Both the position numbers and the translations under genes were made by a program. Shown here in pieces: positions 2,309 through 20,670 of a stretch of DNA of 64,000 nucleotides. The DNA comes from Stenotrophomonas sp. WZN-1 (lineage in GTDB: Bacteria; Pseudomonadota; Gammaproteobacteria; Xanthomonadales; Xanthomonadaceae): NCBI RefSeq assembly GCF_002192255.1, contig NZ_CP021768.1, positions 3,614,001-3,678,000 of the forward strand, written 5' to 3'. How positions within the stretch are numbered: the stretch's first letter is position 1; each line of letters begins with the position of its first letter. The notes under the pieces are model-generated. The model saw only the letters and a program-made list of their open reading frames with translations. It was not told the origin of the DNA and made no database searches.

Positions 2309-4467
2309 TGGCGGCGTACCGACTGCACGACCGACAGGCGACGCAGGCGGCGCATCACTTCAGCCAGGTGGTTGCGGTCGCGTACCTGGATGTTGAACGC
2401 CAGCACCGCGGCGTTGAAGTCGCGGTCCAGGTAGTCCACGCGCTCGATGTTGGAGTGGCTTTGGGCGATGGCGGCGGCCAGCTGCGCCAGCACGCCGGTG
2501 CCGTTCTCCACTTCCACCACCAGCGAGGTGTCGTAGTCGCCGGAGACGGTGGTGTCCCAGCCGATCGGCACCCAGCGCTCGGGTGACTTGCGCAGCTCGG
2601 CCAGGTTCGGGCAGTCCATGCGGTGCACCACGATGCCCTTGCCGGCGGTGTGGTAGCCCATGATCTCGTCGCCCGGAATCGGCTGGCAGCAGCCGGCGAA
2701 GGTGACCACGCCACGCTCGCTGCCGTTGATCAGGATCTTTTCCTGCGAATGGTGGCGCGAATGCGGGCCGCCACGCAGTTCGGCGTAGGCCATCAGCGCC
2801 TGCGCGGCCTGGGTCGGCATCCAGTTGCCCAGTGCGACCTCGGCCAGCAGCGCCTCCAGGCGCGGGAAGCGGTGTTCGGCCAGGAACGCATCCAGGCGCC
2901 CCTTCGGCAGCCGCTCCAGCGACGAATCCATCGCTTCCAGCGCACGGTCGAGCATGCGATGGCCCAGCTGCACGGCATCTTCGTGCTCCAGCTGCTTGAG
3001 CTGGTGGCGGATGGCAGTGCGTGCCTTGCTGGTGACCACGAATTCCAGCCACTGCGGCTTCGGCGTGGCCGAGCGCGCGGTGATGATCTCCACCGACTGG
3101 CCCGACACCAGCTTGGTGCGCAGTGGCACCAGTTTCTTGTCCACGCGCGAAGCCACCGCCATGTTGCCGACGTCGGTATGCACGGCATAGGCGAAATCGA
3201 GCGCGGTGGAGTTGCGCGGCAGGGCCAGGATCTTGCCCTTCGGGGTGAACAGATAGACCTCGTCCGGGAACAGGTCGACCTTGACGTTGTCGAGGAACTC
3301 CAGCGAGGAACCGGCGGCGCGCTGCGAGTCGATCAGCTCGACGATCCAGGCGTGGGCGCGGCTCTGCGCGCTGTTGGGTGAATCGCCACCGAACTTGTAG
3401 GTCCAGTGCGCGGCCACGCCACGTTCGGCGATCAGGTCCATTTCCTCGGTACGGATCTGCACTTCAATCGGCGAACCATACGGCCCGAACAGCACGGTGT
3501 GCAGCGACTGGTAACCGTTGGCCTTGGGAATGGCGATGAAGTCGCGGAAGCGGCCATCCAGCGGCTTGAAGGTGGCATGCACCGAACCCAGCGCGTGGTA
3601 GCAGCTGGGCACGCTGCGCACGACCAGGCGGAAGCCGAACACATCCATCACCTGGTCGAAGGATTTGTTCTCGTCGCGCATCTTGTTGTAGATGCTCCAC
3701 GGGGTCTTGATGCGGCTGATCAGCCGATGCTCGATCCCCTCCTTGGCCAGGCGCTGCGACAGCTGCACTTCCACCTGTGCCATCGCTTCGCGGCGCACCA
3801 CCGGCTGGCTGCGGATGTGTTTCTCGATGATGGCGTGGCGCCACGGGTACAGCGCCTTGAAACCGAGATTCTGCAGTTCGCTCTTGACCAGGCTCATGCC
3901 CAGGCGCTGGGCGATGGGCGCGTAGATCTCCAGCGTCTCGCGGGCGATGCGGCCACGTGCCTCGCGGCTCTGCGCGCCCAGCGTGCGCATGTTGTGCAGG
4001 CGATCGGCCAGCTTGATCATGATCACACGCAGGTCGCGCGACATCGCCAGCAGCATCTTGCGGAAGCTCTCGGCGGCCGCCTCCTGGCGGTCGCGGAACT
4101 TCAGCTTGTCCAGCTTGGTGACGCCGTCGACCAGTTCGGCCACGGCTTCGCCGAACTCGGCGGCCAATGCCTCGCGGGTCAGCGGCGTGTCTTCGATGGT
4201 GTCGTGCAGGATCGCGGCGATCAGCGCTTCCACGTCCAGGCCGAGCTCGGCCAGCACCTGGGCCACGGCCACCGGATGGGTGATATAGGGCTCGCCCGAC
4301 TTGCGCGTCTGCCCAGCGTGCGCGGAGGCTCCGACTTCCCAGGCACGGCGCAACAGCGGCAGCTGTTCCGGCGGCAGGTAATGGGCGGCGCGTTCAAGCT
4401 GGAGGACGTAGTCGGGTACGGCGGCAGTGGGGGCTGCGGCGACCTTGGCAGTGGGGCCTGGGTTCAT
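2305..4467 (-). CDS. spoT: Bifunctional (p)ppGpp synthase/hydrolase SpoT
   Basis: A 720-residue RelA/SpoT homologue that makes and degrades the alarmone (p)ppGpp. The HD hydrolase domain is intact, with HAGQTRKSGEPYITHP at about 50-65 and the metal-binding HDTIED at about 88-93, so hydrolysis is expected. The synthetase domain follows (KTPWSIYNKM, DVFGFRLVV, ending near ERGVAAHWTYK), then a TGS domain (VYLFTPKGKILALP) and a C-terminal ACT domain (SLVVEVENGTGVLAQLAA). Length is close to E. coli SpoT. It follows rpoZ on the same strand, the standard gammaproteobacterial order. Its stop codon is the TAG of a GTAG palindrome. Confidence 0.96.
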   Translation of the reverse strand: MNPGPTAKVAAAPTAAVPDYVLQLERAAHYLPPEQLPLLRRAWEVGASAHAGQTRKSGEPYITHPVAVAQVLAELGLDVEALIAAILHDTIEDTPLTREALAAEFGEAVAELVDGVTKLDKLKFRDRQEAAAESFRKMLLAMSRDLRVIMIKLADRLHNMRTLGAQSREARGRIARETLEIYAPIAQRLGMSLVKSELQNLGFKALYPWRHAIIEKHIRSQPVVRREAMAQVEVQLSQRLAKEGIEHRLISRIKTPWSIYNKMRDENKSFDQVMDVFGFRLVVRSVPSCYHALGSVHATFKPLDGRFRDFIAIPKANGYQSLHTVLFGPYGSPIEVQIRTEEMDLIAERGVAAHWTYKFGGDSPNSAQSRAHAWIVELIDSQRAAGSSLEFLDNVKVDLFPDEVYLFTPKGKILALPRNSTALDFAYAVHTDVGNMAVASRVDKKLVPLRTKLVSGQSVEIITARSATPKPQWLEFVVTSKARTAIRHQLKQLEHEDAVQLGHRMLDRALEAMDSSLERLPKGRLDAFLAEHRFPRLEALLAEVALGNWMPTQAAQALMAYAELRGGPHSRHHSQEKILINGSERGVVTFAGCCQPIPGDEIMGYHTAGKGIVVHRMDCPNLAELRKSPERWVPIGWDTTVSGDYDTSLVVEVENGTGVLAQLAAAIAQSHSNIERVDYLDRDFNAAVLAFNIQVRDRNHLAEVMRRLRRLSVVQSVRRQ

Positions 4468-4516
4468 GCCCGCAGCCTATTCCAGCGCGACGTTTACGGC
4501 AAATCCTGAATGCGAA

Positions 4517-4541
4517 ACAGCCCGCACGGGGCGGGCTGTTC
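4517..4541 (-). terminator. Hairpin between rpoZ and spoT
   Basis: Read on the minus strand, ACAGCCCGCC-CCGT-GCGGGCTGT is followed by TTCGC. It could attenuate rpoZ transcription before spoT. The T-run is weak, so function is uncertain. Confidence 0.45.
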
Positions 4542-4573
4542 GGCATATCCAACGATTACGTTGATCGATGCGA

Positions 4574-4873
4574 TCAATCGTCGTTCTTGGACATGTCTTC
4601 GTCGGCGACCACTTCCGCGGCGGCCCACTCCAGCGCTTCGCGCTCGGCACGCTCACGCTCGGCCTTCTCGACTTCGTCGATCAGCGCGTTGTCGATCTTG
4701 CGGGCGGCGATTTCGCGCAGCGCCAGCACGGTCGGCTTGTCCTCGGTCTCGCTGTTGTCCAGCGTGGCCTGCACGCCGTTGGCGAGCTGGCGGGCACGCT
4801 TGGACGCCATCATGACCAGTTCGAAACGGTTGTTAACGACTTCCAGGCAATCTTCTACGGTGATGCGGGCCAT
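4574..4873 (-). CDS. rpoZ: DNA-directed RNA polymerase omega subunit
   Basis: A 99-residue omega subunit, which helps fold and assemble RNA polymerase beta-prime and takes part in ppGpp binding. It begins [20 protein letters not shown] and carries the conserved ASKRARQL and [11 protein letters not shown] segments, ending in a short acidic tail. The length fits xanthomonad omega. It sits between gmk and spoT, as in E. coli, linking polymerase, GMP metabolism and alarmone synthesis in one transcription unit. About 110 bp separate it from gmk. Confidence 0.96.
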
Positions 4874-4983
4874 ACGGGCTCCCGGCGACCGGTCGGCCGC
4901 TCAGTCGAATGAGGGAAAGGGGACGGAGTGTACTGGCAGGGGCTGGACAAAATCAAGCCAACCCCTACCCGATTCTTTTGGAA

Positions 4984-5649
4984 TCAGTCAGTTGCACCCG
5001 GATCGGGGGTCAGCAGGGCCTGGATCAGGCCGGCGTGGCGGACCTTCTGGGCCTCCCGGCGCAGGCGGCTGGCGGTGAAGATGGCGCACAGCTCGTCCAC
5101 GGCGGTGTCGAACACCTCGTTGACGATGACGTAGTCGAACTCGTTGAAGTGCAGCATCTCGTCACGGGCCGCGCCCAGGCGCTGGGCGATGACGGCCTCG
5201 CTGTCCTGGCCGCGCTTGCGCATGCGGTCCTGCAGGGCCTGCTTGGACGGCGGCAGGATGAACACGGTGACCGTGCCCGGCACCAGCTGGCGCACCTGCT
5301 GCGCGCCCTGCCAGTCGATCTCCAGCAGCACGTCCTGGCCGGCGGCCAGCTGCGGTTCCACCGACTGGCGGGCGGTGCCCTTCCAGTCGCCGTGCACCCA
5401 GGCATGCTCGAAGAAGTCGCCGGCGGCGATCATTTCCTCGAACTTCTCCGCAGAGACGAAATGGTAGTGCTGGCCGTTCACCTCACCGGGGCGCATCGCG
5501 CGCGACGTGAAGGAGATCGACAGGGCGATCTGCGGGTCACGGGCCAGGGTGGCATTGACGATGCTGCTCTTGCCGGCGCCGGACGGGGCGGCAACGATGT
5601 ACAGCGTGCCGCGCGCAACGGCGTCCGACGGCTTCGACGGGGCGCTCAT
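4984..5649 (-). CDS. gmk: Guanylate kinase
   Basis: Phosphorylates GMP to GDP with ATP. The chosen start gives 221 residues beginning MSAPSKPSDAVARGTLYIVA, with the P-loop APSGAGKSS at about 21-29. The guanylate-kinase signature SFTSRAMRPGEVNGQHYHFV and the segment FFEHAWVHGDWKGT follow. The reading frame runs 67 codons further upstream, but that extension is Arg/Pro-rich and not family-like, so I rejected it. It heads the gmk-rpoZ-spoT block and is divergent from the formate dehydrogenase operon. Confidence 0.95.
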   Translation of the reverse strand: MSAPSKPSDAVARGTLYIVAAPSGAGKSSIVNATLARDPQIALSISFTSRAMRPGEVNGQHYHFVSAEKFEEMIAAGDFFEHAWVHGDWKGTARQSVEPQLAAGQDVLLEIDWQGAQQVRQLVPGTVTVFILPPSKQALQDRMRKRGQDSEAVIAQRLGAARDEMLHFNEFDYVIVNEVFDTAVDELCAIFTASRLRREAQKVRHAGLIQALLTPDPGATD

Positions 5650-5938
5650 GCGGCGGATCCAACGGGTTGATTTCGCAAAATTTTTCCTCGGTGTTCCAGA
5701 TCCGGCGCGGAGGATCGCGCCAGGACGGCGGGGGCTGCGCGGAACATCCTGGAACCAGGCCCGGCAGACGCTTCCCCGGGGGCGGGCACGCAACTTTACC
5801 AGAGCGGCCCCGGTGCGCGCCCTCCCGGCAGGCGCCGGGCCTTGTGCCACATGGGCATCCGGGCGCCTGTGCTATAACCGGGCTGTACCCAACGACAGCC
5901 CGGAGGCCTGCGCCTCCCCGCCATCCCAGGAGAACGGC
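5650..5938. promoter_or_regulatory. Divergent gmk / fdnG promoter region
   Basis: This gene-free stretch separates gmk (minus) from fdnG (plus). A -10-like TATAAC at 5873-5878 lies about 60 bp before the fdnG ATG, with no convincing -35 at the right distance. A GC-rich inverted repeat (GGAGGCCTGCGCCTCC, about 5901-5916) follows, then AGGAGA as ribosome binding site. I saw no clear NarL or FNR site. gmk-side promoter elements are also not clear. Confidence 0.35.
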
Positions 5939-8900
5939 ATGCCATCGATGAGCCGCCGCCAGTTCCTGAAAGTGACCGGGACAACCCTGGTCGGCTCCAG
6001 CCTGGCATTGATGGGCTTCGCGCCCGGCATCGCGCTCGCGGAGGTCAGGCAGTACAAGCTGACCCGCGCGACCGAGACCCGCAACACCTGTACGTACTGT
6101 TCGGTGGCCTGCGGCATCCTGATGTACAGCCTCGGCGACGGTGCCAAGAACGCCGAGCCGAGCATCTTCCATATCGAGGGCGACCCGGATCACCCGGTCA
6201 ACCGCGGCACGCTGTGCCCGAAGGGTGCCGGCCTGGCCGACATCATCCACAGCAAGTCGCGCCTGCTCTACCCCGAGTACCGCGCACCGGGCTCCAACGA
6301 GTGGAAGCGGCTGAGCTGGGACGATGCGCTGGACCGCATCGCACGGCTGATGAAGGAAGACCGCGATGCCAACTTCGTGCAGAAGAACGAAGCCGGGCAG
6401 ACGGTCAACCGCTGGCTGACCACCGGCATGCTGGCCGCCTCGGCCACCAGCAATGAAACCGCGGTGCTGACCCACAAGGTCGTCCGTTCCCTTGGCATGT
6501 TGGCATTCGACAACCAGGCACGTGTCTGACACGGCCCGACGGTGGCAGGTCTTGCCCCGACGCTAGGCCGTGGTGCGATGACGAATCACTGGGTCGACAT
6601 CAAGAATGCCGACCTGATCCTGATCATGGGTGGCAATGCCGCCGAGGCACACCCGTGCGGGTTCAAATGGGTGACCGAGGCCAAGGCACACAACAAGGCC
6701 AGGCTGATCGTGGTCGATCCGCGCTTCAACCGCTCGGCCGCGGTGGCCGACGTGTACGCGCCGATCCGTACCGGCACCGACATCGTGTTCCTGGGCGGCC
6801 TGATCAACTACCTGTTGACCGAGGACCGCATCCAGCACGAGTACGTGCTGAACTACACCGACATGTCGTTCCTGGTGAAGGACGAGTTCGCCTTCAAGGA
6901 CGGCCTGTATTCGGGCTACAACGAAGAGAAGCGCAGCTACGACCGTTCCAGCTGGGACTACGCGTACGGTGACGATGGCTTCGTGCGCAGCGACCCGACG
7001 CTGAAGGACCCGCGCTGCGTCTACGCCCTGCTCAAGCAGCACTACGCGCGCTACACCGTGGAGATGGTCGAGCGCATCTGCGGCACGCCGGCCGACAGCA
7101 TCCGCCAGGTGTGGGAGATGATCGCGTCCACCGCCGGCAAGGACAAGGCGATGACCATCCTGTACGCGCTGGGCTGGACGCAGCACTCGGTGGGTGCGCA
7201 GAACGTGCGCGCCGGTACCATGGTGCAGCTGCTGCTGGGCAACATCGGCGTGGCCGGTGGTGGCATGAACGCGCTGCGCGGGCATTCCAACATCCAGGGC
7301 CTGACCGACATCGGCCTGATGTCGGACCTGCTGCCCGGCTACCTGACCCTGCCGAAACAGGACGAGCAGGACTACGACGCCTACATCGCCAAGCGCACGC
7401 AGAAGCCGCTGCGCGCCAACCAGATGTCGTTCTGGCAGAACTACCCGAAGTTCCACGTCAGCCTGATGAAGTCGTGGTGGGGCGACGCCGCCACCGCCGA
7501 CAACAACTGGTGCTTCGACCACCTGCCCAAGCTCGACAAGCCGTACGACATGCTGCAGGCCTACGAGCTGATGAACGAAGGCAAGATCCACGGCTACATC
7601 TGCCAGGGCTTCAATCCGCTGGCCTCGGCGCCGAACAAGGGCAAGCTGATCAGTGCGTTCTCCAAGCTGAAGTTCATGGTCAGCATGGATCCGCTGGAAA
7701 CCGAGACCATCGCCTTCTGGCAGAACCATGGTGCGCTGAACGACGTCGACCCGGGCACGATCCAGACCGAAGTATTCCGCCTGCCGACCACCTCCTTCGC
7801 CGAGGAGAACGGCGCGGTGGTGAACTCCTCGCGCTGGCTGCAGTGGCACTGGAAGGGGGCCAATCCGCCGGGTGAAGCGCGCAGCGACATCGAGATCATG
7901 TCCGAGCTTTTCCATCGCATCAAGGCGATGTACGAGAAGGACGGCGGTGCGTGGTGGGAGCCGGTGCGCGACTTGGCCTGGAAGTATTCCAACCCGGAAC
8001 TGCCGACGCCGGAAGAACTGGCAATGGAATATAACGGCAAGGCGCTGGCCGATGTGTTCGATCCGAAGGACCCGACCAAGCTGGTGCGCAAGGCCGGCGA
8101 GCAGCTGGCCGCGTTCGGCGACCTGCGCGACGACGGCAGCACCTCCTCCGGCTGCTGGATCTACATCGGCGCCTGGGGCCCGACCGGCAACATGATGGCG
8201 CGGCGTGACAACAGCGACCCCACCGGCATCGGCAACACGCTGGGCTGGGCATGGGCGTGGCCGGCCAACCGCCGGGTGATGTACAACCGCGCCTCGTGCG
8301 ACGTGGCCGGCCAGCCGTTCGATCCGCGCCGCACGCTGCTGGCCTGGAACGGCAAGAACTGGGGCAACGTGGACGTGCCGGACTTCAAGGCCGACGAAGA
8401 TCCCGCCGGCGGGATGGGCCCGTTCATCATGAATCCGGAAGGCATCGCCCGCTTCTTCGCCAAGGCCGGCATGGCCGAGGGACCATTCCCGGAGCACTAC
8501 GAGCCCTTCGATACCCCGCTGCGCAGCAATCCGCTCAGCCCGGGGCAGGCACTGACGCTGAACAACCCGGCGGCACGCGTGTTCGCCAGCGATCGCGCAC
8601 AGATCGGCTCGCCGGACGAGTTCCCGCATGTGGCCACCACCTACCGCCTGACCGAGCATTTCCACTTCTGGACCAAGCACGGCAAGTTGAACGCCATCAT
8701 CCAGCCCGAGCAGTTCGTCGAGATCGGCGCGGCCCTGGCCGATGAGCTGGGCATCACCAACGGCAGCCGCGTGCGGGTCAGTTCCAAGCGCGGCCACATC
8801 GAAGCGGTGGCGATGGTGACCAAGCGCATCAAGGCCCTGCAGATCGATGGCCGGACCGTGCACCAGGTGGGTGTGCCAATCCACTGGGGCTTCCTCGGTG

Positions 8901-9007
8901 CGGCCAAGCCCGGATACATCGCCAATACGCTGACCAACGCCATCGGTGACGGCAACTCGCAGACGCCCGAATCGAAGTGCATCCTGGTCAAGGTCGAGAA
9001 GGTGTAG
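5939..9007 (+). CDS. fdnG: Formate dehydrogenase-N alpha subunit, selenoprotein (UGA at 6527-6529 read as Sec197)
   Basis: Catalytic subunit of the periplasm-facing formate dehydrogenase, which oxidises formate to CO2 at a molybdenum-bis-MGD centre. The product is 1022 residues if the in-frame UGA is read through. It begins with a twin-arginine signal ([13 protein letters not shown]), followed by the [4Fe-4S] ligands C51, C54, C58 and C93 ([10 protein letters not shown]...CPKG). The UGA falls at residue 197, within one residue of E. coli FdnG Sec196, in the context [16 protein letters not shown]. The same frame continues without break to the molybdopterin dinucleotide-binding C-terminus. A SECIS-type hairpin lies directly after the UGA. 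The ATG at 5939 follows AGGAGA. fdnH starts 10 bp downstream. It should not be annotated as two ORFs or as a pseudogene. Confidence 0.96.
6527..6572 (+). promoter_or_regulatory. Sec UGA codon plus bacterial SECIS hairpin in fdnG
   Basis: UGA (6527-6529) is followed by CACGGCC (6530-6536), which pairs with GGCCGTG (6566-6572). The apical stem GGCA/TGCC (6544-6547 with 6553-6556) closes the loop GGTCT (6548-6552). The E. coli fdhF and fdnG elements, as I recall them, also read CACGGCCC...GCAGGUCU at the same distance from the UGA, and SelB binds that GGUCU loop. Confidence 0.93.
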
Positions 9008-9017
9008 GAGACACGCC

Positions 9018-9935
9018 ATGTCACTGCAATCGCTGGACATCATCCGCCGCTCGGCCACCACCACGCCCTCGCCGGAGGCGCGTGGTGCGCACACTGGCCA
9101 GGTCGCCAAGCTGATCGATGTGAGCAAGTGCATCGGCTGCAAGGCCTGCCAGGTCGCTTGCATGGAATGGAACGACCTGCGCGACGAGGTCGGCAGCTGC
9201 GTCGGCAGCTATGACAACCCGCCCGACCTGAGCGAACAGTCGTGGACGGTGATGAAGTTCCGCGAGTACGAGGACGAGAAAGGCAAGCTGGAGTGGCTGA
9301 TCCGCAAGGAAGGCTGCATGCACTGCAGCGACCCGGGCTGCCTGAAGGCCTGCCCGTCGCCGGGCGCGATCATCCAGTACGCCAACGGCATCGTCGACTT
9401 CCAGGAGGAGAACTGCATCGGCTGCGGCTACTGCGTGACCGGCTGCCCGTTCGACGTGCCGCGCATTTCCAAGAAGGACCACAAGGCCTACAAGTGCACG
9501 CTCTGTTCGGACCGGGTGGCGGTGGGCCAGGAACCGGCGTGCGTGAAGACCTGCCCGACCGGCGCGATCACCTTCGGCAGCAAGCAGGCGATGACCGAGC
9601 ATGCCGCCGGGCGCGTGGAAGACCTGAAATCGCGTGGCTACGAGAATGCCGGCCTGTACGACCCGCAGGGCGTTGGCGGCACCCACGTGATGTACGTGCT
9701 GCAGCACGTGGACAAGCCGGAGCTGTACGCCGACCTGCCCAAGGACCCGCGCATCAGCCCGATGGTGGAAGTCTGGAAGGGCGTGGCCAAGCCGCTGGGC
9801 GTGCTTGCGATTGCCGCTACCGCCTTCGCCGGGTTCCTGCACTACATCGGCATCGGCCGCAACACGGTCAATGACGAGGAAGAAGAGGAAGCCGAGCACG
9901 AGGCGAAGGAGATCGAAGAGGAGCAGCGGCCATGA
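9018..9935 (+). CDS. fdnH: Formate dehydrogenase-N beta subunit (4x[4Fe-4S] electron-transfer protein)
   Basis: A 305-residue iron-sulfur subunit carrying electrons from FdnG to the membrane cytochrome. Four cysteine clusters are visible: [35 protein letters not shown] and CTLCSDRV...CVKTC. A single C-terminal membrane helix ([19 protein letters not shown]) anchors it. After the helix is an unusually acidic tail ([18 protein letters not shown]). The start ATG at 9018 follows AGGAGACACGCC. Its stop overlaps the fdnI start in ATGA, indicating translational coupling. Confidence 0.95.
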
Positions 9936-10579
9936 AGTACGCCCCGCACCCGCGGCAGATCGTGCGCTACCGCGCGCCGACCCGCATCAATCACTGGATC
10001 GTGGCGATCTGCTTCGTGCTGACGGCGCTGTCCGGGCTGGCGCTGTTCCACCCTGCCCTGTTCCCGTTGACGCAGCTGTTCGGTGGCGGCCCGTGGACAC
10101 GCATCCTGCATCCGTTCATCGGCCTGGCCATGGTGGTGGGATTTGCGCTGCTGGCGTTCCGCATGTGGCGCGACAATCTGCCGACCGCCGACGATGGCAA
10201 GTGGATGCGCGGCATGCGCGATGTGCTGCGCAACGAAGACGAGAAGCTGCCGCCGGTGGGTCGCTTCAATGCCGGCCAGAAACTGCTGTTCTGGGCGATC
10301 ATTGGTTGCCTGTCGGCGCTGTTGCTGACCGGCTTTGTGATCTGGCGGCAGTACTTCAGCCACTTCTTCCCGATCGGGGTGATCCGCTTCTCGGTCCTTG
10401 CCCATGCGCTGTTCGGCTGGGTGCTGGTGTGCGCGATCGTGGTGCACATCTACGCGGCGATCTGGATCAAGGGCTCGGTGCGGGCGATGACCCAGGGCAA
10501 GGTGACCTACGGGTGGGCGTACAAGCACCACCGGCAGTGGTTCCGGGACATCCTGCGCGGGCGGCGGGAACAGGGTTAG
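9932..10579 (+). CDS. fdnI: Formate dehydrogenase-N gamma subunit (cytochrome b556)
   Basis: A 215-residue diheme membrane subunit that passes electrons from formate oxidation to quinone. It opens [20 protein letters not shown] followed by HW, the standard start of the family with its first heme-ligand His. Four hydrophobic segments follow (about 20-40, 53-75, 113-135 and 150-172), with further His residues in [18 protein letters not shown] and VVHIYAAIW. Length matches FdnI/FdoI. The start overlaps the fdnH stop, and a composite repeat element begins 2 bp after the stop. Confidence 0.94.
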
Positions 10580-10581
10580 CG

Positions 10582-10767
10582 GCAGGGCCTGCGGCCCTGC
10601 ACCCGCAGAATCAACGTCAACGTCAACGTCAAAAGCTGGCTATACGTGGGATGGCGGTGCACTGTGGATTTGCGGGGACGCCGTGAACCCGTCCCTGGGG
10701 GCTTGGCCGCGGCATCCATGCCGCGGACACCCCGCAAACCCACAGTGCCCCGCCTTCGACAGTTCCC
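10582..10767 (+). repeat. Composite intergenic hairpin element, full copy 1
   Basis: The modules in order are: hairpin GCAGGGCCTGCGGCCCTGC; ACCCGCAGA; three CAACGT units; GTGGGATGGCGG; a long hairpin with arms TTTGCGGGG and CCCCGCAAA plus CACTGTGG and CCACAGTG; a core GACGCCGTGAACCCGTCC with a CGCGGCATCCATGCCGCG palindrome; and a tail CGCCTTCGACAGTTCC. It shares every module with 25091-25272 (opposite strand) and the core and tail with 24774-24884. It begins 2 bp after the fdnI stop. Confidence 0.75.
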
Positions 10768-10778
10768 CGGTGCTGTTG

Positions 10779-10802
10779 GTAGATGTCGACCTTGGTCGAC
10801 AC
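10779..10802 (+). repeat. GTAG-headed palindrome
   Basis: GTAGATGTCGACCTTGGTCG plus ACAC, a REP-like hairpin of the family scattered through the window's gaps. Confidence 0.7.
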
Positions 10803-10901
10803 GATGAACATGACCCCAACCATTTCAAATGGCCGGCTGTGCGCTGGACGCCGGCGCCTACAACGGCGAGGATGGAGGCTGGTTCTTCTGGCTGGCCCTG
10901 C

Positions 10902-11885
10902 ATGGCGCAACGCATCCTTGAACCCGGTGAGATCGAGACGCTGGCCTCGCGCGATGTTCCGCGCATCATCCTGCCCGATACCGAGTCGCTGTTCGCCGCT
11001 CGTGCGGACCGGCTGCGCAGCCTGGCCGCGCACAGCGCCATCGGCGGCTACCTGCAACTGCTGGCGGCGCTGGCAGATGCACAGCAGGCGCTGCTGGAGG
11101 ACCTGACACCGCAGCAGCGCGAGGAACTTCAGGCGCAGGCGCGCGCGCAGCAGTCTAGTGCGGCGGCCAGTGCCGGCATGCCGTTGCGGCCGGCCAACAC
11201 GCTTCATCTGGATGGGCGCTGGCGCGACTGGCTGCGCACGCTGTGCCGGCACTGCGCCGATGAAGCGGGGCTGCCGGCGGAAACGCGGCAGGAACTGCTG
11301 CGCGTGGCCGCCGCCAATGACACCTGGTTGGATGCGCAGGCCCACGCCGTGCTGGAACGCGATGACGCGCCCGCGGTCGACGCGGTCGCTGCGCTGCTGG
11401 TGATGAATGCATTGCAGGTGTACTGGGCCGTGCTCGCAGCCAGCTTCCGCTCCACCGAGCTGAAGCCGTTGGCCGATGCGCCAGGGCTGTGCCCGCTGTG
11501 CGGCACGTTGCCTGTGACCAGCGTAGTGCAGGCGCGCCCGCCCTATGCGTCCTACCGCTACCTGTCGTGCTCGCTGTGCGCCTGCCAATGGCACTTCGTG
11601 CGCGTTCAGTGCAGCCAGTGCGGTGCCGCCGGCAAGGACATCGCCTATCGCGCCCTGGCCGATGCCGACGGCGATACCGGCCATGCCGTGCGCGAGAGCG
11701 CGGTGCGTGCCGAGACCTGCGACCACTGCCACAGCTACCGCAAGATCCTGTATCTGGAAAAAGACCCATCATTGGAACCGGTGGCCGATGACCTCGGCAC
11801 ACTGGCGCTGGACCTGCTGCTGGGCGAGGAAGGCTACGCGCGTGCCAGCCAGAATCCACTGCTGTGGCAATCCGACAGCGACTGA
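10902..11885 (+). CDS. fdhE: Formate dehydrogenase accessory protein FdhE
   Basis: FdhE is a cytosolic iron-binding maturation factor that acts on Tat-targeted formate dehydrogenases before export. The 327-residue product begins MAQRILEPGEIETLASRD and shows the family pattern RADRLR.LA...GGYLQLLAALADAQ. The C-terminal half has four CxxC pairs typical of FdhE: CPLCG, CSLCAC, CSQCG and CDHC. The reading frame is open 73 codons further upstream across the repeat-filled gap, but that part is not family-like, so the ATG at 10902 is preferred. selA follows after 3 bp. Confidence 0.92.
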   Translation: MAQRILEPGEIETLASRDVPRIILPDTESLFAARADRLRSLAAHSAIGGYLQLLAALADAQQALLEDLTPQQREELQAQARAQQSSAAASAGMPLRPANTLHLDGRWRDWLRTLCRHCADEAGLPAETRQELLRVAAANDTWLDAQAHAVLERDDAPAVDAVAALLVMNALQVYWAVLAASFRSTELKPLADAPGLCPLCGTLPVTSVVQARPPYASYRYLSCSLCACQWHFVRVQCSQCGAAGKDIAYRALADADGDTGHAVRESAVRAETCDHCHSYRKILYLEKDPSLEPVADDLGTLALDLLLGEEGYARASQNPLLWQSDSD

Positions 11886-11888
11886 CCG

Positions 11889-13313
11889 ATGCCACGCACG
11901 CCCCCCACCCCTGCATCGGCCGCCGCCCTGCCTTCGCTGGACAAGCTGCTGCGCCTGCCTGCCTTGGCAGCCCTGATCGAGGGCCACGGCCGTACCCGCA
12001 TCACCCAGTTTTTGCGCGTACATCTGCAAGCGCTGCGTGAGCGCATCAGTACCGCGCAGCTCTCGACCGGACAGCTGCAGCAGGCCATTGAGGGTCCGGC
12101 TCTGGTCGAGGCGCTCGACGCCGCCCTTGCCGCCGATGCACGGCTGGACCTGCAGCCGATGTTCAACCTGACCGGCACCGTGCTGCATACCAACTTGGGC
12201 CGCGCACTGTTGCCCGATGCCGCCGTGCAGGCGGTCATCCGCGCAATGACCGCGCCGGTCGATCTGGAATTCGACATCACCCGCGGCCGCCGCGGCGATC
12301 GCGATGCCCGAGTGCAGGCGCTGGTCTGCGAACTGACCGGCGCTGAAGCCGCCACCGTGGTCAACAACAATGCGGCGGCGGTCCTGTTGCTGCTCAACAG
12401 CCTGGCCAACCGCCGCGAGGTGGTGGTGTCGCGCGGCGAACTGGTGGAGATCGGCGGTGCCTTCCGTATTCCCGATGTGATGCGCAGTGCCGGCGCGCGG
12501 CTGCTGGAAGTGGGCACTACCAATCGCACCCACCCGACCGATTTCACCCATGCCATCGGCACCCGCACCGCACTGCTGATGGAAGTGCATGCCAGCAACT
12601 ACGCGATCACCGGCTTCACCGCCAAGGTCGACACGGCGGCAATGGCGGCCATCGCGCACGACCACGGCCTGCCGCTGGTGGTGGACCTGGGCAGCGGCAG
12701 CCTGTGCGACCTGGCGGCATTCGGCTTGCCACACGAGCCGACCGTGCAGGAAACACTGGCGGCCGGCGCCGACCTGGTCTCATTCAGCGGCGACAAGCTG
12801 CTGGGCGGGCCACAGGCTGGCATCATCGCCGGTCGCGCTGACCTGATCGCACGGATCAATCGCAACCCGCTCAAGCGCGCACTGCGCATGGACAAGATGG
12901 GCCTGGCCGCGCTGGAAGCGGTGCTGGCCCTGTACCGCGAACCGGAGTTGCTGGCGCAACGGCTGCCGACCCTGCGCACCCTGTCTCGCACGCAGGAGGA
13001 CATGGATATGCAGGCTCACCGCCTGCTGCAACCGATGCGTTCCGCGCTCGCGGCCGACTACGATCTTGAACGGGCATCGATGCACAGCCAGATCGGCAGT
13101 GGTGCACAACCACAGGCGCAGCTGGCCAGTACCGGACTGCGCATTACCAGCGCGCGCCGTGGCGGCCTGGATCGTCTGGCCAAGCGCTTGCGTCAACTGC
13201 CGCGACCCGTACTGGGGCGCATCGCCGACGAGACGCTGTGGCTGGACCTGCGCTGCCTGGAACCTGCCGACGAAGCGGACTTCCTCGCCCAATGGAGCGC
13301 GCTGCAGGCATGA
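11889..13313 (+). CDS. selA: L-seryl-tRNA(Sec) selenium transferase
   Basis: A PLP enzyme that converts seryl-tRNA(Sec) to selenocysteyl-tRNA(Sec) using selenophosphate. It has 474 residues, close to the E. coli length. The SelA N-terminal region (LPSLDKLLRLPALAALIEGHG) and FNLTGTVLHTNLGRALLP are conserved. The PLP-binding Lys is K303 in FSGDKLLGGPQAG. It starts 3 bp after fdhE and its stop overlaps the selB start in ATGA, so fdhE, selA and selB look like one operon. The match is complete, with no missing motif. Confidence 0.97.
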   Translation: MPRTPPTPASAAALPSLDKLLRLPALAALIEGHGRTRITQFLRVHLQALRERISTAQLSTGQLQQAIEGPALVEALDAALAADARLDLQPMFNLTGTVLHTNLGRALLPDAAVQAVIRAMTAPVDLEFDITRGRRGDRDARVQALVCELTGAEAATVVNNNAAAVLLLLNSLANRREVVVSRGELVEIGGAFRIPDVMRSAGARLLEVGTTNRTHPTDFTHAIGTRTALLMEVHASNYAITGFTAKVDTAAMAAIAHDHGLPLVVDLGSGSLCDLAAFGLPHEPTVQETLAAGADLVSFSGDKLLGGPQAGIIAGRADLIARINRNPLKRALRMDKMGLAALEAVLALYREPELLAQRLPTLRTLSRTQEDMDMQAHRLLQPMRSALAADYDLERASMHSQIGSGAQPQAQLASTGLRITSARRGGLDRLAKRLRQLPRPVLGRIADETLWLDLRCLEPADEADFLAQWSALQA

Positions 13314-15238
13314 TCGTCGGCACCGCCGGGCATATCGACCATGGCAAGACGAGCCTGGTGCGGGCACTGACTGGCATCGAAACCGATCGCCTGCAGGAAG
13401 AACGCGCGCGCGGCATCTCCATCGAGCTGGGTTACGCCTATGTTCCGGTGGAAGGAACGGGCGCGGATGCTTCTGCGACGCTGGGTTTCGTCGATGTGCC
13501 GGGCCATGAGCGCTTCGTACATACGATGGTGGCCGGCGCCACCGGCATCGATGTGGCGTTGCTGGTGATCGCCGCCGATGACGGTGTGATGCCGCAGACC
13601 CGCGAGCATCTTGCGATCCTGCAGCTGCTGGGCATCGACCGCGGCGCGGTGGCGCTGACCAAGATCGACCGGGTGGATGCCGCGCGCATCGCCCGGGTCG
13701 AAATCGAGATCGCTGCACTGCTGGCCGGCACGCCGCTGCAGGATTCCCGCGTATTCGCCTGCAACAGCATTTCAGCCGATGACGCAGGCATCAAGGCCTT
13801 GCGCGCCCACCTGCACGCATGGGCCGCGCGCGATGCCCACGCGCGCCGGACGGCGCTGCGCAGCGAGCTGTTCCGCATGCCGGTGGACCGCGTGTTCTCG
13901 TTGGCGGGCCACGGCACATTGGTGACCGGCGCGGTGCATGGCGGCGTCGCCACGGTGGGCGAGCACCTGCAACTGATGCCCGCCGCCACCGATGTCCGCG
14001 TGCGCAGCATCCACGCGCAGAACCAGCCCAGCGAACACGCCATGGCCGGGCAGCGCTGTGCGATGAACCTGGCCGCCATCGCCCGCGACGAGATTCATCG
14101 TGGCGACTGGATTGCCGACCCGCGCGCGCTGCTGGCCACCACCCGCATCGATGTGCGCCTTCGGCTGTCCGCACGAGCGGCACCACTGCGCGACTGGGCA
14201 CCCCTGCACATCCACTGGGGCACGATGCACCGGCAGGCCCATGTGGTGCTGCTGGAGGACGACGATCACGGCAATGGGCAGCTCGTGCAGCTGGTGTTCG
14301 AGGCGCCGGTCTGTGCGATGTGTGGTGATCGCTTCATCGCCCGCGATTCCGCCGCCACCCACACGCTGGGCGGTGGCGTCGTGCTCGACCCGGACCCGCC
14401 ACAGCGGCGCCGGCGCAGCCCGGCACGGCTCGCCTGGCTGGGGGCACTGCAGCGGCTTGCCGCGGGTGCGGGAATCGGCCCGCTGTTGCAGCAGGCTCCC
14501 TTCGGCATTGCCATGGCCGCGCTGCAACGCTACTGCCGGCGCGCCGCCGACCAGATCGATCTGCCTGCAGACGCACAACGTATCGTCACCAGCGATGACA
14601 CGGTGATCATCCTCGCCTCGCACTGGCAGGCATTGCGCGAGCAGGTGATCACCTCGCTGCGTGGATGGCACGAGCGGCGCCCGGACGAACCCGGTGTCGA
14701 CAGCGGACGCCTGCAGCGCAGCACCCTGCCGTCGCTTGCAGCGAGCCTCTGGAATGCGCTGCTGCAGGACCTGCTGACCGATGGCACGCTGCTACGCGCG
14801 GGTGCCTGGTGGCGCCTGCCCGGCCATGACCACGCACCACCGGAACGCGAACACCTCCTGCTGGAACGCGTGCTTCCGCAGCTGCACGCCGGTGGTTTCG
14901 ATCCGCCGTGGGTGCGCACCCTGGCTGCCGATATCGGTCTGGCCGAGGAGGATATCCGCGCGGTCCTGCGCCGGGCCGCAGCCCGCGGCGATCTGTTCCA
15001 GGTGGTACCGGACCTGTTCTATGCACCGGCCCGCATCGCCGAGCTGGCCGCGATCATCGCGCAGCTGTCACAGGCCACCGGCACGGTGGATGCGGCGGCC
15101 TTCCGCGATGCCATCGGCCTGGGCCGCAAACGCAGCATCCAGATCTTGGAGTTCTTCAATCGCGTTGGCTACACTCGACGCGTCGGTGACCAACATCGGC
15201 CGCGCGGCGACCTGCAGTGGAGCGCAGCCCGCGACTGA
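13310..15238 (+). CDS. selB: Selenocysteine-specific elongation factor SelB
   Basis: A GTPase that delivers Sec-tRNA to the ribosome at UGA by binding the SECIS hairpin. From the ATG overlapping the selA stop it has 642 residues (E. coli SelB has 614). G1 is GTAGHIDHGKTSL at 4-16, G3 is DVPGHERFVHTM and G4 is TKID. EF-Tu-like beta-barrel domains follow, then C-terminal winged-helix repeats, visible in segments such as VRTLAADIGLAEEDIRAVLR and the final FRDAIGLGRKRSIQILEFFN. That last segment is characteristic of the mRNA-binding end. The frame is open 24 codons upstream inside selA; I rejected that extension. selC starts 24 bp after the stop. Confidence 0.96.
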   Translation: MIVGTAGHIDHGKTSLVRALTGIETDRLQEERARGISIELGYAYVPVEGTGADASATLGFVDVPGHERFVHTMVAGATGIDVALLVIAADDGVMPQTREHLAILQLLGIDRGAVALTKIDRVDAARIARVEIEIAALLAGTPLQDSRVFACNSISADDAGIKALRAHLHAWAARDAHARRTALRSELFRMPVDRVFSLAGHGTLVTGAVHGGVATVGEHLQLMPAATDVRVRSIHAQNQPSEHAMAGQRCAMNLAAIARDEIHRGDWIADPRALLATTRIDVRLRLSARAAPLRDWAPLHIHWGTMHRQAHVVLLEDDDHGNGQLVQLVFEAPVCAMCGDRFIARDSAATHTLGGGVVLDPDPPQRRRRSPARLAWLGALQRLAAGAGIGPLLQQAPFGIAMAALQRYCRRAADQIDLPADAQRIVTSDDTVIILASHWQALREQVITSLRGWHERRPDEPGVDSGRLQRSTLPSLAASLWNALLQDLLTDGTLLRAGAWWRLPGHDHAPPEREHLLLERVLPQLHAGGFDPPWVRTLAADIGLAEEDIRAVLRRAAARGDLFQVVPDLFYAPARIAELAAIIAQLSQATGTVDAAAFRDAIGLGRKRSIQILEFFNRVGYTRRVGDQHRPRGDLQWSAARD

Positions 15239-15262
15239 GCCCACCGGTACCGCCGTACTTTC

Positions 15263-15358
15263 GGAAGGCATGCGCATCCGGGCATGCGGCTGGGCTTCAA
15301 ACCCAGTAGGGGGCGTCGATCGTTCCCTGGTAGGTTCGACTCCTGCTGCCTTCCGCCA
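15263..15358 (+). tRNA. selC: tRNA-Sec (anticodon UCA)
   Basis: A 96-nt tRNA including an encoded CCA. The 8-bp acceptor stem pairs GGAAGGCA (15263-15270) with TGCCTTCC (15347-15354), one base pair longer than in ordinary tRNAs. The anticodon stem TGGG/CCCA carries the loop CTTCAAA with anticodon TCA. A long variable arm and the T-loop GGTTCGACTCC follow, then discriminator G and CCA. It lies between selB and selD, completing the Sec set. Confidence 0.96.
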
Positions 15359-15384
15359 TTCGTGTTTCCGCAGGAGATGTCGGC

Positions 15385-16464
15385 ATGGCCACGCACGCGC
15401 AGTCCCCCGCTCCTTCCACGGCCGATGCCCCGCAACGACTGACCTCGCTGGCCCACGGTGGCGGCTGCGGCTGCAAGATCGCGCCCGGCGTGCTGTCCGA
15501 ACTGCTGCGCGGCGTTCCAGCGCTTCCGGCACCGGCTGAGCTGCTGGTCGGCCGCGAGACCAGCGACGACGCAGCCGTGTATCGCCTCGATGACCGGCAG
15601 GCGATCGTCGCCACCACCGATTTCTTCATGCCGATCGTCGACGACCCGTTCGACTTCGGCCGCATTGCCGCCACCAACGCGCTGTCGGACCTGTACGCGA
15701 TGGGCGCGCGCCCGCTGTTCGCACTGGCCATCGTCGGCATGCCGATCAACAGCCTGCCGCAGGACACCATCCGCGGCATCCTGCAGGGCGGCGAACGCGC
15801 CTGCGCCGATGCCGGTATCGTGGTGGCCGGCGGGCACAGCATCGATTCGGTGGAACCCATCTACGGCCTGGCCGCGATCGGTGTGCTCGATCCGCAGCGG
15901 CTCAAGCGCAATGCCGATGCCCGCGCCGGCGATGTGCTGGTGCTGGGCAAGCCGTTGGGCGTGGGCGTGTATTCGTCGGCGCTGAAGAAAGAAGTCCTGG
16001 ATGCCGACGGCTACCGACAGATGATCGCGTCGACCACCCGCTTGAACAGCGTGGGCGTGCCACTGGCCGCACTGGACGGCGTGCACGCGATGACCGACGT
16101 CACCGGCTTCGGCCTGCTCGGCCACCTGCTGGAAGTGTGCCGCGCCAGCGGCGTCGCCGCCGAAGTGGACAGTGCACAGGTGCCGCTGCTGCCGCAGAGC
16201 CTGGACCTGCTGCAGCGTGGCTGCGTGACCGGTGCCTCCAGCCGCAACTGGGCCTCGTATGGCGCCGAAGTGCGCTTCGCCGAGGGCTTGGCCGCCCATT
16301 GGCAACCATTGCTGACCGATCCGCAGACCAGTGGCGGGCTGCTGGTGTCCTGTGCCCCGGAAGCGGTGGATGCGGTGCTGGCCTGCTTCCACGACGCCGG
16401 GTTCGGCCAGGCGGCCGTGGTGGGGCATTTGGGCGATGGAGCGGCGGGCGTCAACGTGCGCTGA
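15385..16464 (+). CDS. selD: Selenide, water dikinase (selenophosphate synthetase)
   Basis: Makes selenophosphate, the selenium donor used by SelA, from ATP and selenide. The 359-residue product carries GGGCGCKIAPGVL, where C28 and K31 correspond to the catalytic C17 and K20 of E. coli SelD. The Sec position of some SelDs is therefore Cys here and no recoding is needed. Later family motifs DDAAVYRLDDRQAIVATTDF, GGHSIDSVEPIYGL, TDVTGFGLLGHL and DPQTSGGLL are intact. A ribosome binding site CAGGAG precedes the ATG. It lies 26 bp after the tRNA and is the last gene of the module. Confidence 0.97.
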   Translation: MATHAQSPAPSTADAPQRLTSLAHGGGCGCKIAPGVLSELLRGVPALPAPAELLVGRETSDDAAVYRLDDRQAIVATTDFFMPIVDDPFDFGRIAATNALSDLYAMGARPLFALAIVGMPINSLPQDTIRGILQGGERACADAGIVVAGGHSIDSVEPIYGLAAIGVLDPQRLKRNADARAGDVLVLGKPLGVGVYSSALKKEVLDADGYRQMIASTTRLNSVGVPLAALDGVHAMTDVTGFGLLGHLLEVCRASGVAAEVDSAQVPLLPQSLDLLQRGCVTGASSRNWASYGAEVRFAEGLAAHWQPLLTDPQTSGGLLVSCAPEAVDAVLACFHDAGFGQAAVVGHLGDGAAGVNVR

Positions 16465-16478
16465 TGCGCTGAAACGAC

Positions 16479-16500
16479 AAGGGCGCCCGAAGGCGCCCCT
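16479..16500. terminator. Hairpin between convergent selD and yicC
   Basis: GGGCGCC pairs with GGCGCCC around CGAA on the plus strand, or around TTCG on the minus strand. The UUCG tetraloop form would serve yicC. T-runs are short on both sides. Confidence 0.55.
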
Positions 16501-16521
16501 GCTGTATCGCTGGATGCAACA

Positions 16522-17382
16522 TCACTCGATGTTCTGCACCTGTTCGCGGATCTGGTCGATCAGCACTTTCAGCTCCACCGCGGCATTGGACGTACGGCTG
16601 TCCACCGACTTCGACCCCAGCGTGTTGGCCTCGCGGTTGAACTCCTGCAGCAGGAAGTCCAGGCGGCGGCCGACCGGTTCGCGCTGCTTGAGCACGCGGC
16701 GGATCTCGACGATGTGGCTGCCGAGGCGGTCCAGCTCTTCATCCACGTCCAGCTTCTGCAGCCACAGCACCAGTTCCTGCTCAGCGCGGCCGGGGTCGAC
16801 CGGGTGCGGCAGATCGGCCAGGCGTGCGGCCAGCTTGGCGCGCTGGCCGTCGCGAATGGCCGGAATCAAGGTGCGGACTTCGGTGGCGATGCGTTCGATG
16901 CCGTCCACACGCTCGCTGATGGCGGCCGACAACTTGCCGCCTTCGCGCTCACGGGCCTCGACGAAGCCGTCCAGCACCTGGTCCAGCAGGGCCAGTGCCT
17001 CGACCTGCAGGGCGGCGGCATCGGTGGCCTCGCCGCGGGTCACGCCCGGCAGCTGCAGCAGGTCGGTGAAGCTGACCTGCAGGTTGGGGAAATCGGAGGT
17101 CAGGCGGTGCGCCAGGCGGCCCAGCTGGCCCAGCAGGGCCTCGTCCACCTGCAGGTTGGCGGCCGCTTCCGGCGCGCGCAGGCGCATCACCAGATCCAGC
17201 TTGCCGCGGCTCAGGCGCGCGGCGATGCGCTCGCGCAGCTGCGGTTCGAGCGCCCGCAGTTCCTCGGGCAGGCGGGTGCCGACCTCCAGGAAGCGGTGGT
17301 TGACCGAGCGCAGCTCGCAGCCCAGCGTGCCCCACGGGGTAACCCGCTCGCCGCCGGCGTAGGCGGTCATGCTTCGAATCAT
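16522..17382 (-). CDS. yicC: YicC/YloC family endoribonuclease
   Basis: The 286-residue product belongs to the YicC family. E. coli YicC is an endoribonuclease implicated in turnover of the small RNA RyhB. The N-terminus [12 protein letters not shown] and segment [20 protein letters not shown] are diagnostic, as is the C-terminal [20 protein letters not shown]. It is divergent from rph, the common gammaproteobacterial arrangement. Length and motifs are complete. Confidence 0.93.
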
Positions 17383-17506
17383 GGATTGTGTCCGGTGCGT
17401 GCAAAGGGGGAATGGTACCCTAGCGCCCTCACCACAGCCCCCTTGCCCGCCCCGTGAAGGCTGCGGGCGTGGCGGCGTACTCCCACGCCATTACGGAACC
17501 CGCACC

Positions 17507-18232
17507 ATGTCCGATTCCCGCCCCAGCGGCCGCCAGCCCGACCAGCTCCGCCCGGTCGTCATCCAACGCGGCTTCACCCGCCACGCCGAAGGTTCGGTGC
17601 TGGTGTGCTTCGGTGAAACCCGCGTGCTGTGCACCGCCAGCGTCGAGAACCGCGTGCCGGGCTTCCTGCGCGGCAAGGGCGAAGGCTGGGTGACCGCCGA
17701 GTACGGCATGCTGCCGCGCGCCACCCACACCCGCAGCGACCGCGAAGCCGCCCGTGGCAAGCAGGGCGGCCGCACGCTGGAGATCCAGCGCCTGATCGGC
17801 CGCAGCCTGCGTGCCTGCGTGGACCGCAACGCGCTGGGCGAGCGCACCATCACCCTCGACTGCGACGTGCTGCAGGCCGACGGTGGCACCCGCACCGCTG
17901 CCATCACCGGCGCCTACGTGGCCCTGGTCGATGCGGTGAACGTGCTGATGAAGCGTGGCGACATCAAGCGCAACCCGATCCTGGGCGCGGTGGCCGCCGT
18001 GTCCGTGGGCGTGTACCGCGGCACTCCGGTGCTGGACCTGGACTACGCCGAAGACAGCGACTGCGACACCGACATGAACGTGGTGATGAACGACGGCGGC
18101 GGTTTCATCGAACTGCAGGGCACCGCCGAAGGCCATGCCTTCCGTCGCGATGAACTGGACGCGCTGCTGGGCCTGGCCGAAAAGGGCGTGCGCGAGCTGC
18201 TGGACGCACAGCAGGCGGCGCTGTCGGCATGA
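17507..18232 (+). CDS. rph: Ribonuclease PH
   Basis: A phosphorolytic 3'-5' exoribonuclease that trims tRNA 3' ends. The 241-residue product begins [20 protein letters not shown] and contains [27 protein letters not shown], the phosphate-binding stretch [20 protein letters not shown], and [16 protein letters not shown]. It heads a tightly packed run: the VOC gene overlaps its stop by ATGA and rdgB overlaps the VOC stop in turn. The open frame extends 46 codons upstream into the yicC promoter; that part is not family-like. Confidence 0.96.
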
Positions 18233-18618
18233 ACCGGCGCATCGCCCTGACCACCCTGGTGGTGGCCGACTACGACGAAGCCATCGCCTGGTACACCGGC
18301 AAGCTCGGCTTCGCGCTGCTGGAGGACATCGACCAGGGCCACAAGCGCTGGGTGGTGGTGGGCCCGACCGACGGCAGCGCCACCGCCCTGCTGCTGGCCC
18401 GTGCCAGCGATGAGGAACAGCGCAGCCGCATCGGCAACCAGACCGGTGGCCGCGTCGCTTTCTTCCTCAACACCGACGACTTCCACCGCGACCACGCGGC
18501 GATGCTGGCCGCCGGGGTCGAGTTCCTGGAAGCGCCGCGCGAAGAACCCTATGCAACGGTCGCGGTGTTCCGCGATCTGTATGGCAACACCTGGGACCTG
18601 CTGGAGCCCCGTCAATGA
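18229..18618 (+). CDS. VOC/glyoxalase-fold protein
   Basis: A 129-residue single vicinal-oxygen-chelate domain. The pattern [18 protein letters not shown] at the N-terminus and the C-terminal [16 protein letters not shown], with its terminal acidic metal ligand, are typical of the glyoxalase/bleomycin-resistance superfamily. The substrate is not predictable. It overlaps rph upstream and rdgB downstream by ATGA junctions, so it is translationally coupled to two nucleotide-housekeeping genes. No resistance function is implied. Confidence 0.85.
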
Positions 18619-19211: not shown

Positions 19212-19235
19212 CGCCTTGCTGAATACCCCAGGGAA

Positions 19236-19257
19236 GCCGGCCAGCGGCCGGCACTAC
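19236..19257 (-). repeat. GTAG-headed SMAG-type palindrome abutting hemW
   Basis: Read on the minus strand it is GTAGTGCCGGCCGCTGGCCG plus GC. Its head ends 2 bp before the annotated hemW ATG and occupies the place of a Shine-Dalgarno sequence. Confidence 0.75.
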
Positions 19258-19259
19258 CG

Positions 19260-20495: not shown

Positions 20496-20511
20496 TCTTC
20501 CTGCCTCGCAT

Positions 20512-20576
20512 CCGCCGGGCATGGCCCGGCGCTACCCAGCAGGCAAGCGCCCGGTAGCGCCGGGCCATGCCCGGCG
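20512..20576. repeat. Inverted pair of SMAG-type palindromes
   Basis: A minus-oriented copy (20512-20536, CGCCGGGCATGGCCCGGCG then CTACC) faces a plus copy (20553-20576, GGTAGCGCCGGGCCATGCCC plus GGCG) across 16 bp. The two can also pair with each other as one long hairpin. It lies downstream of hemW. Confidence 0.8.
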
Positions 20577-20670
20577 AACAAGGTGCACGTTCACCCTAAA
20601 GTAGCGCCGACTGCGGCCGACACGGTAGATTCACAGGATCGATCCGCGGGAATCCGGGTACCGCTCGCCG

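Follow-up and report, generated by a model that had tools for sequence, protein, structure and literature searches.

The selenocysteine (Sec) decoding genes of Stenotrophomonas sp. WZN-1, a member of the S. maltophilia group, lie together in a segment of ~10.5 kb (positions 5939-16464) within a 64,000-nt window of its chromosome (GCF_002192255.1; NZ_CP021768.1, 3,614,001-3,678,000). This block carries, all on the plus strand, fdnG, fdnH, fdnI, fdhE, selA, selB, selC and selD. It is probably a compact Sec cassette built around one selenoprotein; an ancestor of the block-bearing Stenotrophomonas would have gained it at a site between yicC and gmk and passed it on. Related blocks occupy other sites in other Xanthomonadales, and gene trees point to exchange among them, partly in pieces. 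All seven proteins of the block score above the curated cut-off of the matching NCBIfam model, and the features are as follows:

4984 to 5649, minus strand: gmk, the left flank, ATG intact (TIGR03263)
5939 to 9007, plus strand: fdnG, Sec-containing formate dehydrogenase-N alpha subunit (TIGR01553, 1477 bits, cut-off 814, TGA read as Sec), with the stop TAG at 9005-9007 and a twin-arginine translocation (Tat)-type signal, SRRQFLK, recognized by eye
6524 to 6582, plus strand: bacterial Sec insertion sequence (SECIS) element at the in-frame TGA (Rfam RF01989 SECIS_3, 81.4 bits, gathering score 63, E 1e-17)
6527 to 6529, plus strand: the Sec codon, an in-frame TGA
9018 to 9935, plus strand: fdnH, iron-sulfur beta subunit (TIGR01582, 471 bits, cut-off 335)
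9932 to 10579, plus strand: fdnI, cytochrome b556 gamma subunit (TIGR01583, 194 bits, cut-off 116)
10580 to 10901, plus strand: fdnI-fdhE gap of strain-dependent length, containing inverted repeats, one of them a palindrome headed by GTAG, read by eye
10902 to 11885, plus strand: fdhE, formate dehydrogenase accessory protein (TIGR01562, 245 bits, cut-off 188)
11889 to 13313, plus strand: selA, L-seryl-tRNA(Sec) selenium transferase (TIGR00474, 571 bits, cut-off 268)
13310 to 15238, plus strand: selB, Sec-specific elongation factor (TIGR00475, 419 bits, cut-off 242, from residue 25 of the open reading frame (ORF) starting at 13238)
15263 to 15358, plus strand: selC, tRNA-Sec with anticodon TCA (ARAGORN; Rfam RF01852 at 15263-15354, 64.4 bits, gathering score 47)
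15385 to 16464, plus strand: selD, selenophosphate synthetase in its Cys form, GGGCGCK (NF002098, 527 bits, cut-off 299)
16481 to 16498, no strand assigned: hairpin GGGCGCC-CGAA-GGCGCCC 3' of selD, a possible terminator read from the sequence and present in G209 too; the terminator scan did not call it
16522 to 17382, minus strand: yicC, the right flank, stop codon intact (TIGR00255)

An earlier note on this DNA had described a contiguous fdnGHI-fdhE-selA-selB-selC-selD module that unites a UGA-containing formate dehydrogenase, its maturation factor and the four Sec factors. That description is borne out: every part is present in this order and on this strand, and the SECIS, tRNA-Sec and family matches agree. 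Chance can be excluded as an explanation. The genes are tightly packed, with 10 bp between fdnG and fdnH, 3 bp between fdhE and selA, 24 bp between selB and selC, 26 bp between selC and selD, and 57 bp from selD to yicC. The overlaps of fdnH/fdnI and selA/selB noted earlier are there (4 bp each), and the accompanying statement that most other gaps are under 30 bp holds save for fdnI-fdhE; every other spacing within the block is 26 bp or less or an overlap. As the FdhE model match begins at residue 76 of an ORF from 10683, fdhE most likely starts at 10902, which would make this gap ~322 bp. Across Stenotrophomonas loci the same gap measures ~140-480 bp. Its palindrome resembles the SMAG/REP (repetitive extragenic palindromic) repeats of Stenotrophomonas.

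The genes selB and selC are treated as the signature of the bacterial Sec-decoding trait in PMC1273633. Both are present here (TIGR00475; RF01852/ARAGORN), as are selA and selD (TIGR00474, NF002098) and an in-frame UGA followed by a SECIS (RF01989 at UGA 6527). The Sec position is TGA in 36/36 sequences with an fdnG match; 48 sequences were examined, and in the other 12 no such match was found within the stretch compared. At E <= 1e-100, FdnG was detected in 15 of 26 genomes, with one TGA in each. A consensus SECIS fold built on 13 of 17 distinct sequences contains 15 predicted pairs, 12 of them kept in 13/13 sequences and three broken in one to three. In two pairs both partners have changed (A-U to C-G in four sequences, G-C to U-G in one), and the element is nearly invariant in sequence among the relatives compared. 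The WZN-1 genome has one SECIS_3 match; since this model covers one class of element, other selenoproteins are still possible there. SelU was sought in the same genome and not found. Among 14 control genomes only E. coli has a SECIS_3 match. E. coli formate dehydrogenase-N belongs to the same enzyme family and uses the same SECIS class, but in E. coli fdnGHI and the sel genes are scattered over several loci.

For tRNA-Sec, the best scores are 60-80 bits in the 15 SelA-bearing genomes of the family versus 47-52 bits in eight SelA-less genomes of the window's genus, and selC was counted only at 60 bits or more. A match above the gathering score was rejected as a selC marker: 23/23 genomes exceed it because a tRNA-like locus of ~47-52 bits also occurs without SelA. 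This locus (G000:C1:2770626-2770713 and equivalents), found with and without the block, probably encodes a different, long-armed tRNA.

Judged from its sequence, the block is expected to function as a conventional UGA-to-selenocysteine module with one detected selenoprotein, formate dehydrogenase-N. Could the machinery instead be idle, with the UGA mostly read as a stop and the module decaying? Scans for FNR boxes and promoters upstream of fdnG found nothing, using models that may suit GC-rich Stenotrophomonas poorly. Against this stand the reading frames, which are open save one TGA for all seven proteins in 10/10 named loci with the whole block. Of 24 loci compared, 22 (the 10 named and 12 from genomes designated by G numbers) have seven proteins near full length with the FdnG TGA as the sole stop, and the remaining two are interrupted by a contig end. 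The near-invariance of the SECIS and the 97-99% identity of FdnG to that of seven other block-bearing Stenotrophomonas also argue against decay, which we regard as highly improbable.

The earlier note had proposed comparing the flanks of the block among relatives, and this comparison finds the gmk-yicC site occupied in block-bearing and empty in block-less genomes of the window's genus. The block lies between gmk and yicC in 9/17 of these genomes. In one of the nine (G071) it is split over two contigs, with the flanks on different contigs; in the other eight the gmk-yicC distance is 10.8-12.2 kb. Where SelA is lacking the two genes adjoin in 8/8 genomes, with 17-184 bp between aligned parts, and FdnG at E <= 1e-100 was not found in these eight. 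The yicC stop and gmk start overlap as ATGA in the four of these eight genomes that were read at base level. The block of the window is flanked by an undamaged yicC stop (16522) and an undamaged gmk ATG (5649), so it parts two genes that are otherwise probably coupled. One and the same site is thus filled in some relatives and empty in others, as looked for in horizontal acquisition. Because the site is filled in the eight block-bearing genomes where the distance can be measured and closed in all eight without SelA, it is likely that an ancestor of the block-bearing Stenotrophomonas acquired the block at gmk-yicC and that it was inherited thereafter. We infer, rather than observe, the direction and donor of the transfer.

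The gmk-yicC site looks like an insertion hotspot. Some genomes of genus g7 have ~10-11 kb there, with no SelA match found in it. Its content was read in one genome: L098 (G291) 2364-12819, between yicC and gmk, encodes a TonB-dependent receptor and FecR (Pfam), with likely TonB/Exb genes by eye. Distances are similar in G111, G134, G202, G271 and G281, and gmk and yicC are close together in other g7 genomes, e.g., G006. The selD-yicC interval also varies, reaching 1.15-1.25 kb in L036, L037, L038 and L086-L088; in L086 (14409-15577) it encodes a helix-turn-helix protein together with a nucleotidyltransferase that PADLOC matches weakly to AbiEii (best E 3e-7). In L040 (S. maltophilia SJTL3) more than 6.8 kb follow selD (14528-21377) and yicC is not in the stretch; a 1277-residue protein encoded there weakly resembles LmuA at its N terminus (E 5e-6). 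Beyond the window's genus, gmk and yicC lie side by side in G043, G239 and G272, with selA on a different contig, and neither gene was found in ~20 kb around the block in G043, G046, G057 and G047.

The distribution of the block is patchy, as had been supposed. SelA scores above 250 bits in 15/297 genomes sampled from the family and 9/17 from the window's genus; at E <= 1e-60 it is found in 18/151 genomes of the order and 17/369 of the class, the family, order and class samples overlapping. Weak matches (30 bits or less), which make up 55 of the 70 family genomes with any match, were set aside as presumably other pyridoxal phosphate enzymes. A collection of named genomes gave 17 SelA loci. Twelve are close (11 Stenotrophomonas and one [Pseudomonas] hibiscicola), some of them overlapping with the G-numbered genomes, and these contain the whole block in 10 cases and are cut by a contig end in two (L034, L038). 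The other five were rejected as distant, with 36-42% identity over ~100 residues or fewer and block genes not found.

Does the block follow the species that carry it? On an rpoB tree of 29 genomes, five block-bearing Stenotrophomonas group together (support 90/94), G046 groups with G211, G005 and G057 (100/99), and G043 joins four genomes of the window's genus that lack the block (100/100). G239 falls inside Xanthomonadaceae (100/100), and presence of the block changes at least five times among the chosen genomes. Groupings of Stenotrophomonas with G046 (p 3e-41) and of G239, G272, G725 and G734 (p 1e-8) are rejected by rpoB. A tree of five block proteins (19 rows) places G043, then G046, next to Stenotrophomonas, and G239 with G725 and G734 of a second family (100/100); holding the second family together is rejected (p 8e-35). 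The parts of the block also disagree with one another. The fdhE+selA+selB+selD tree joins Stenotrophomonas with G046 (100/100), and the approximately unbiased (AU) test, whose p values here are indicative, rejects Stenotrophomonas with G043 (p 6e-5) and G046 with G057 and G047 (p 2e-79). The fdnG tree joins Stenotrophomonas with G043 (100/100), and Stenotrophomonas with G046 (p 1.7e-12) and G046 with G057 and G047 (p 5e-7) are rejected.

Both simple descent and transfer strictly as a single unit are disfavored by these trees. Universal presence with congruent trees, the outcome that the earlier note had set against transfer, was not found: the gene trees conflict with rpoB. Its suggestion that the trait is inherited or transferred as a unit stands in part, since acquisition and inheritance are upheld within the block-bearing Stenotrophomonas and the single unit is not, the fdnG and fdhE-selA-selB-selD trees being different. 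As this difference is significant, parts of the block seem to have been exchanged separately in the family. It is possible, and we propose it tentatively, that the Xanthomonadales share a circulating kit that adds a 21st amino acid in one step and lands at various sites, with separate recombination of an enzyme part (fdnG plus most of fdnH) and a decoding part (fdhE-selA-selB-selC-selD).

The conflict might also stem from unequal rates, errors of the model or conversion confined to fdnG in a block otherwise inherited as one unit. Simple LG+G4 models were applied, and for the sel genes G043 and G046 differ little in their identity to the window (SelA 75 and 78%, SelB 70 and 74%, SelD 78 and 79%; FdhE is at 64 and 70%). 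Support is, however, 100/100 on both sides, with AU p values of 6e-5 to 2e-79, and at the DNA level G043 is 85-94% identical to the window in the segments from 6100 to 9850, which cover fdnG and the greater part of fdnH, and mostly 58-86% identical beyond, compared with 78-90% in the first part for G046. We therefore consider this explanation rather doubtful.

A block ancestral to the Xanthomonadales, passed on vertically, lost in most lineages and occasionally moved within genomes with no transfer between species, would fit the single site within the block-bearing Stenotrophomonas. It would also fit the type A block tree, which broadly follows taxonomy (Burkholderia and G518, the second family, Xanthomonadaceae). 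Such a history is nevertheless unlikely. It requires loss in 282/297 sampled family genomes and several relocations, and the fdhE+selABD tree disagrees with that of fdnG, while both disagree with rpoB by setting G046 near Stenotrophomonas rather than with G057. In addition, G239, a member of Xanthomonadaceae by rpoB, carries a divergent block in which selD lies inverted ahead of fdnG and which groups with G725/G734 (100/100). Near the divergent block a second SelB-like GTPase-domain match (28-29% identity) was seen in G239 and G272 (L084 1045-1794, L085 10238-10987).

Several points weigh against acquisition with piecewise exchange. The rpoB tree is a single marker that covers 5/9 of the block-bearing genomes of the genus and lacks G047, in which rpoB was not matched. 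The taxonomic order of the type A tree is expected from descent with loss as well, and a constraint that keeps the block rows of all Xanthomonadaceae in one group was not rejected (AU p 0.127; likelihood fell by 456). The groups tested were partly named after the per-gene trees had been viewed, so the AU p values are indicative. Nor was a carrier identified: no integrase or transposase is among the block genes, the flanks not having been specifically searched for them; a SelA search of viral contigs gave six pattern stretches, none a relative; and megablast of the whole block against plasmids returned 108 records, none with 80% of the block at the DNA level.

At the protein level, tblastn of SelA against plasmids returned 340 records, the best ~64% identical and in Cupriavidus. 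The plasmid NZ_CP076061.1 of Cupriavidus sp. EM10 (L145) shares the fdnGHI-fdhE-selA-selB-selC order and, because it carries selD too, contains a full relative; the record is 2.5 Mb long, is deposited as a plasmid and is typed non-mobilizable. It differs from the window in that selD lies ~1.3 kb after selC and that fdnG, selA and selB match in pieces. The Burkholderia arboris replicon NZ_CP101525.1 (L144) has the same fdnGHI-fdhE-selA-selB-selC order but selD was not found in the stretch. SelA identity of these relatives is 57-67%.

Elsewhere, the eight-gene order recurs in four other genera of the family (G043, G046, G057 and G047). In the second family, where 7/10 SelA loci were compared, G688 and G660 have the full order, G707 has it with ~3.2 kb between fdnI and fdhE, and selD is inverted in the remaining four. 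Of the class matches outside the order 13/14 were compared: one has the full block (G321, from another order), G518 and G566 have fdnGHI-fdhE-selAB-selC with selD not nearby, and 10/13 lack that order. In G057, fdhD adjoins fdnG, and the block of G046 has close to it genes for a bestrophin and for an extracellular solute-binding protein, judged ModA-like by eye.

The biochemical roles of the block proteins can be proposed from their families. SelD would make selenophosphate, host seryl-tRNA synthetase would charge SelC, and SelA would turn Ser-tRNA(Sec) into Sec-tRNA(Sec). SelB would then bring Sec-tRNA(Sec) to the SECIS hairpin just 3' of UGA 6527, allowing FdnG to be read through with Sec. 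The alpha, beta and gamma subunits of formate dehydrogenase-N all exceed their family cut-offs (TIGR01553, TIGR01582, TIGR01583). FdnG would receive the molybdenum (Mo) cofactor, be serviced by host FdhD and matured by FdhE, and, to judge from the Tat motif, be exported with FdnH by Tat to join FdnI in the membrane. The complex would oxidize formate and pass electrons to quinones and, most plausibly, on to the nitrate reductase NarGHI, a coupling that we infer. FdhD and the Mo-cofactor genes, which had been listed as the missing parts, are indeed absent from the block, yet the same chromosome encodes them. FdhD lies at G000:C1:2409881-2410600, adjoining an FdhF/YdeP-family oxidoreductase, and both maturation factors are thus in the genome. 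The genes narG, narH, narK and moaA are grouped at ~C1:2510-2522 kb with one for a MoeA-like protein that is under the NCBIfam cut-offs and over the Pfam MoCF_biosynth cut-off. The arrangement, earlier called self-sufficient, is so only partly, with the Sec factors and FdhE in the block and FdhD, the Mo cofactor and the electron acceptor supplied from elsewhere.

Co-transfer of Sec genes with formate dehydrogenase is already described. Operons of selA-selB-selC with a neighboring fdhA were reported from Alpha-, Beta- and Gammaproteobacteria/Pseudomonadales, with co-transfer proposed and selD perhaps evolving independently, in the relevant passages of Zhang 2006 (PMC1794560). Like the window's block, these operons set the Sec factors beside the only selenoprotein gene; unlike in them, selD here adjoins selC, an adjacency termed rare in the passage on selD by Romero 2005 (PMC1273633). 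The word "Xanthomonad" occurs 0 times in the text of PMC1794560. The 2008 K279a genome paper (PMC2643945) lists fdn and selenocysteine genes as putatively acquired by S. maltophilia; its passages on these genes do not say where the insertion lies, what became of yicC-gmk or how the block is distributed, and give no tree tests. The block is not described in the available portion of a 2026 review (PMC13188914). Among the matches listed for Stenotrophomonas/Xanthomonadaceae selenocysteine, sel clusters and Burkholderia selA, the titles and abstract openings do not describe the insertion site or mosaic trees. The insertion site, the adjacent selD, the distribution and the mosaic history are added here.

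The Sec module is real, intact, conserved and of an already known kind, and it leaves the known picture of Sec biology unchanged. It does provide a clean case of the gain of Sec decoding, with an occupied and an empty site within one genus, four Sec factors and one detected client. How the trait spreads and is kept can be put to a direct test, since a single segment of 10.5 kb would have to be moved or deleted. If the halves of the block do recombine separately, hosts could refresh one half without the other. From the presence of the block one can predict which Stenotrophomonas species are able to draw electrons from formate via FdnGHI.

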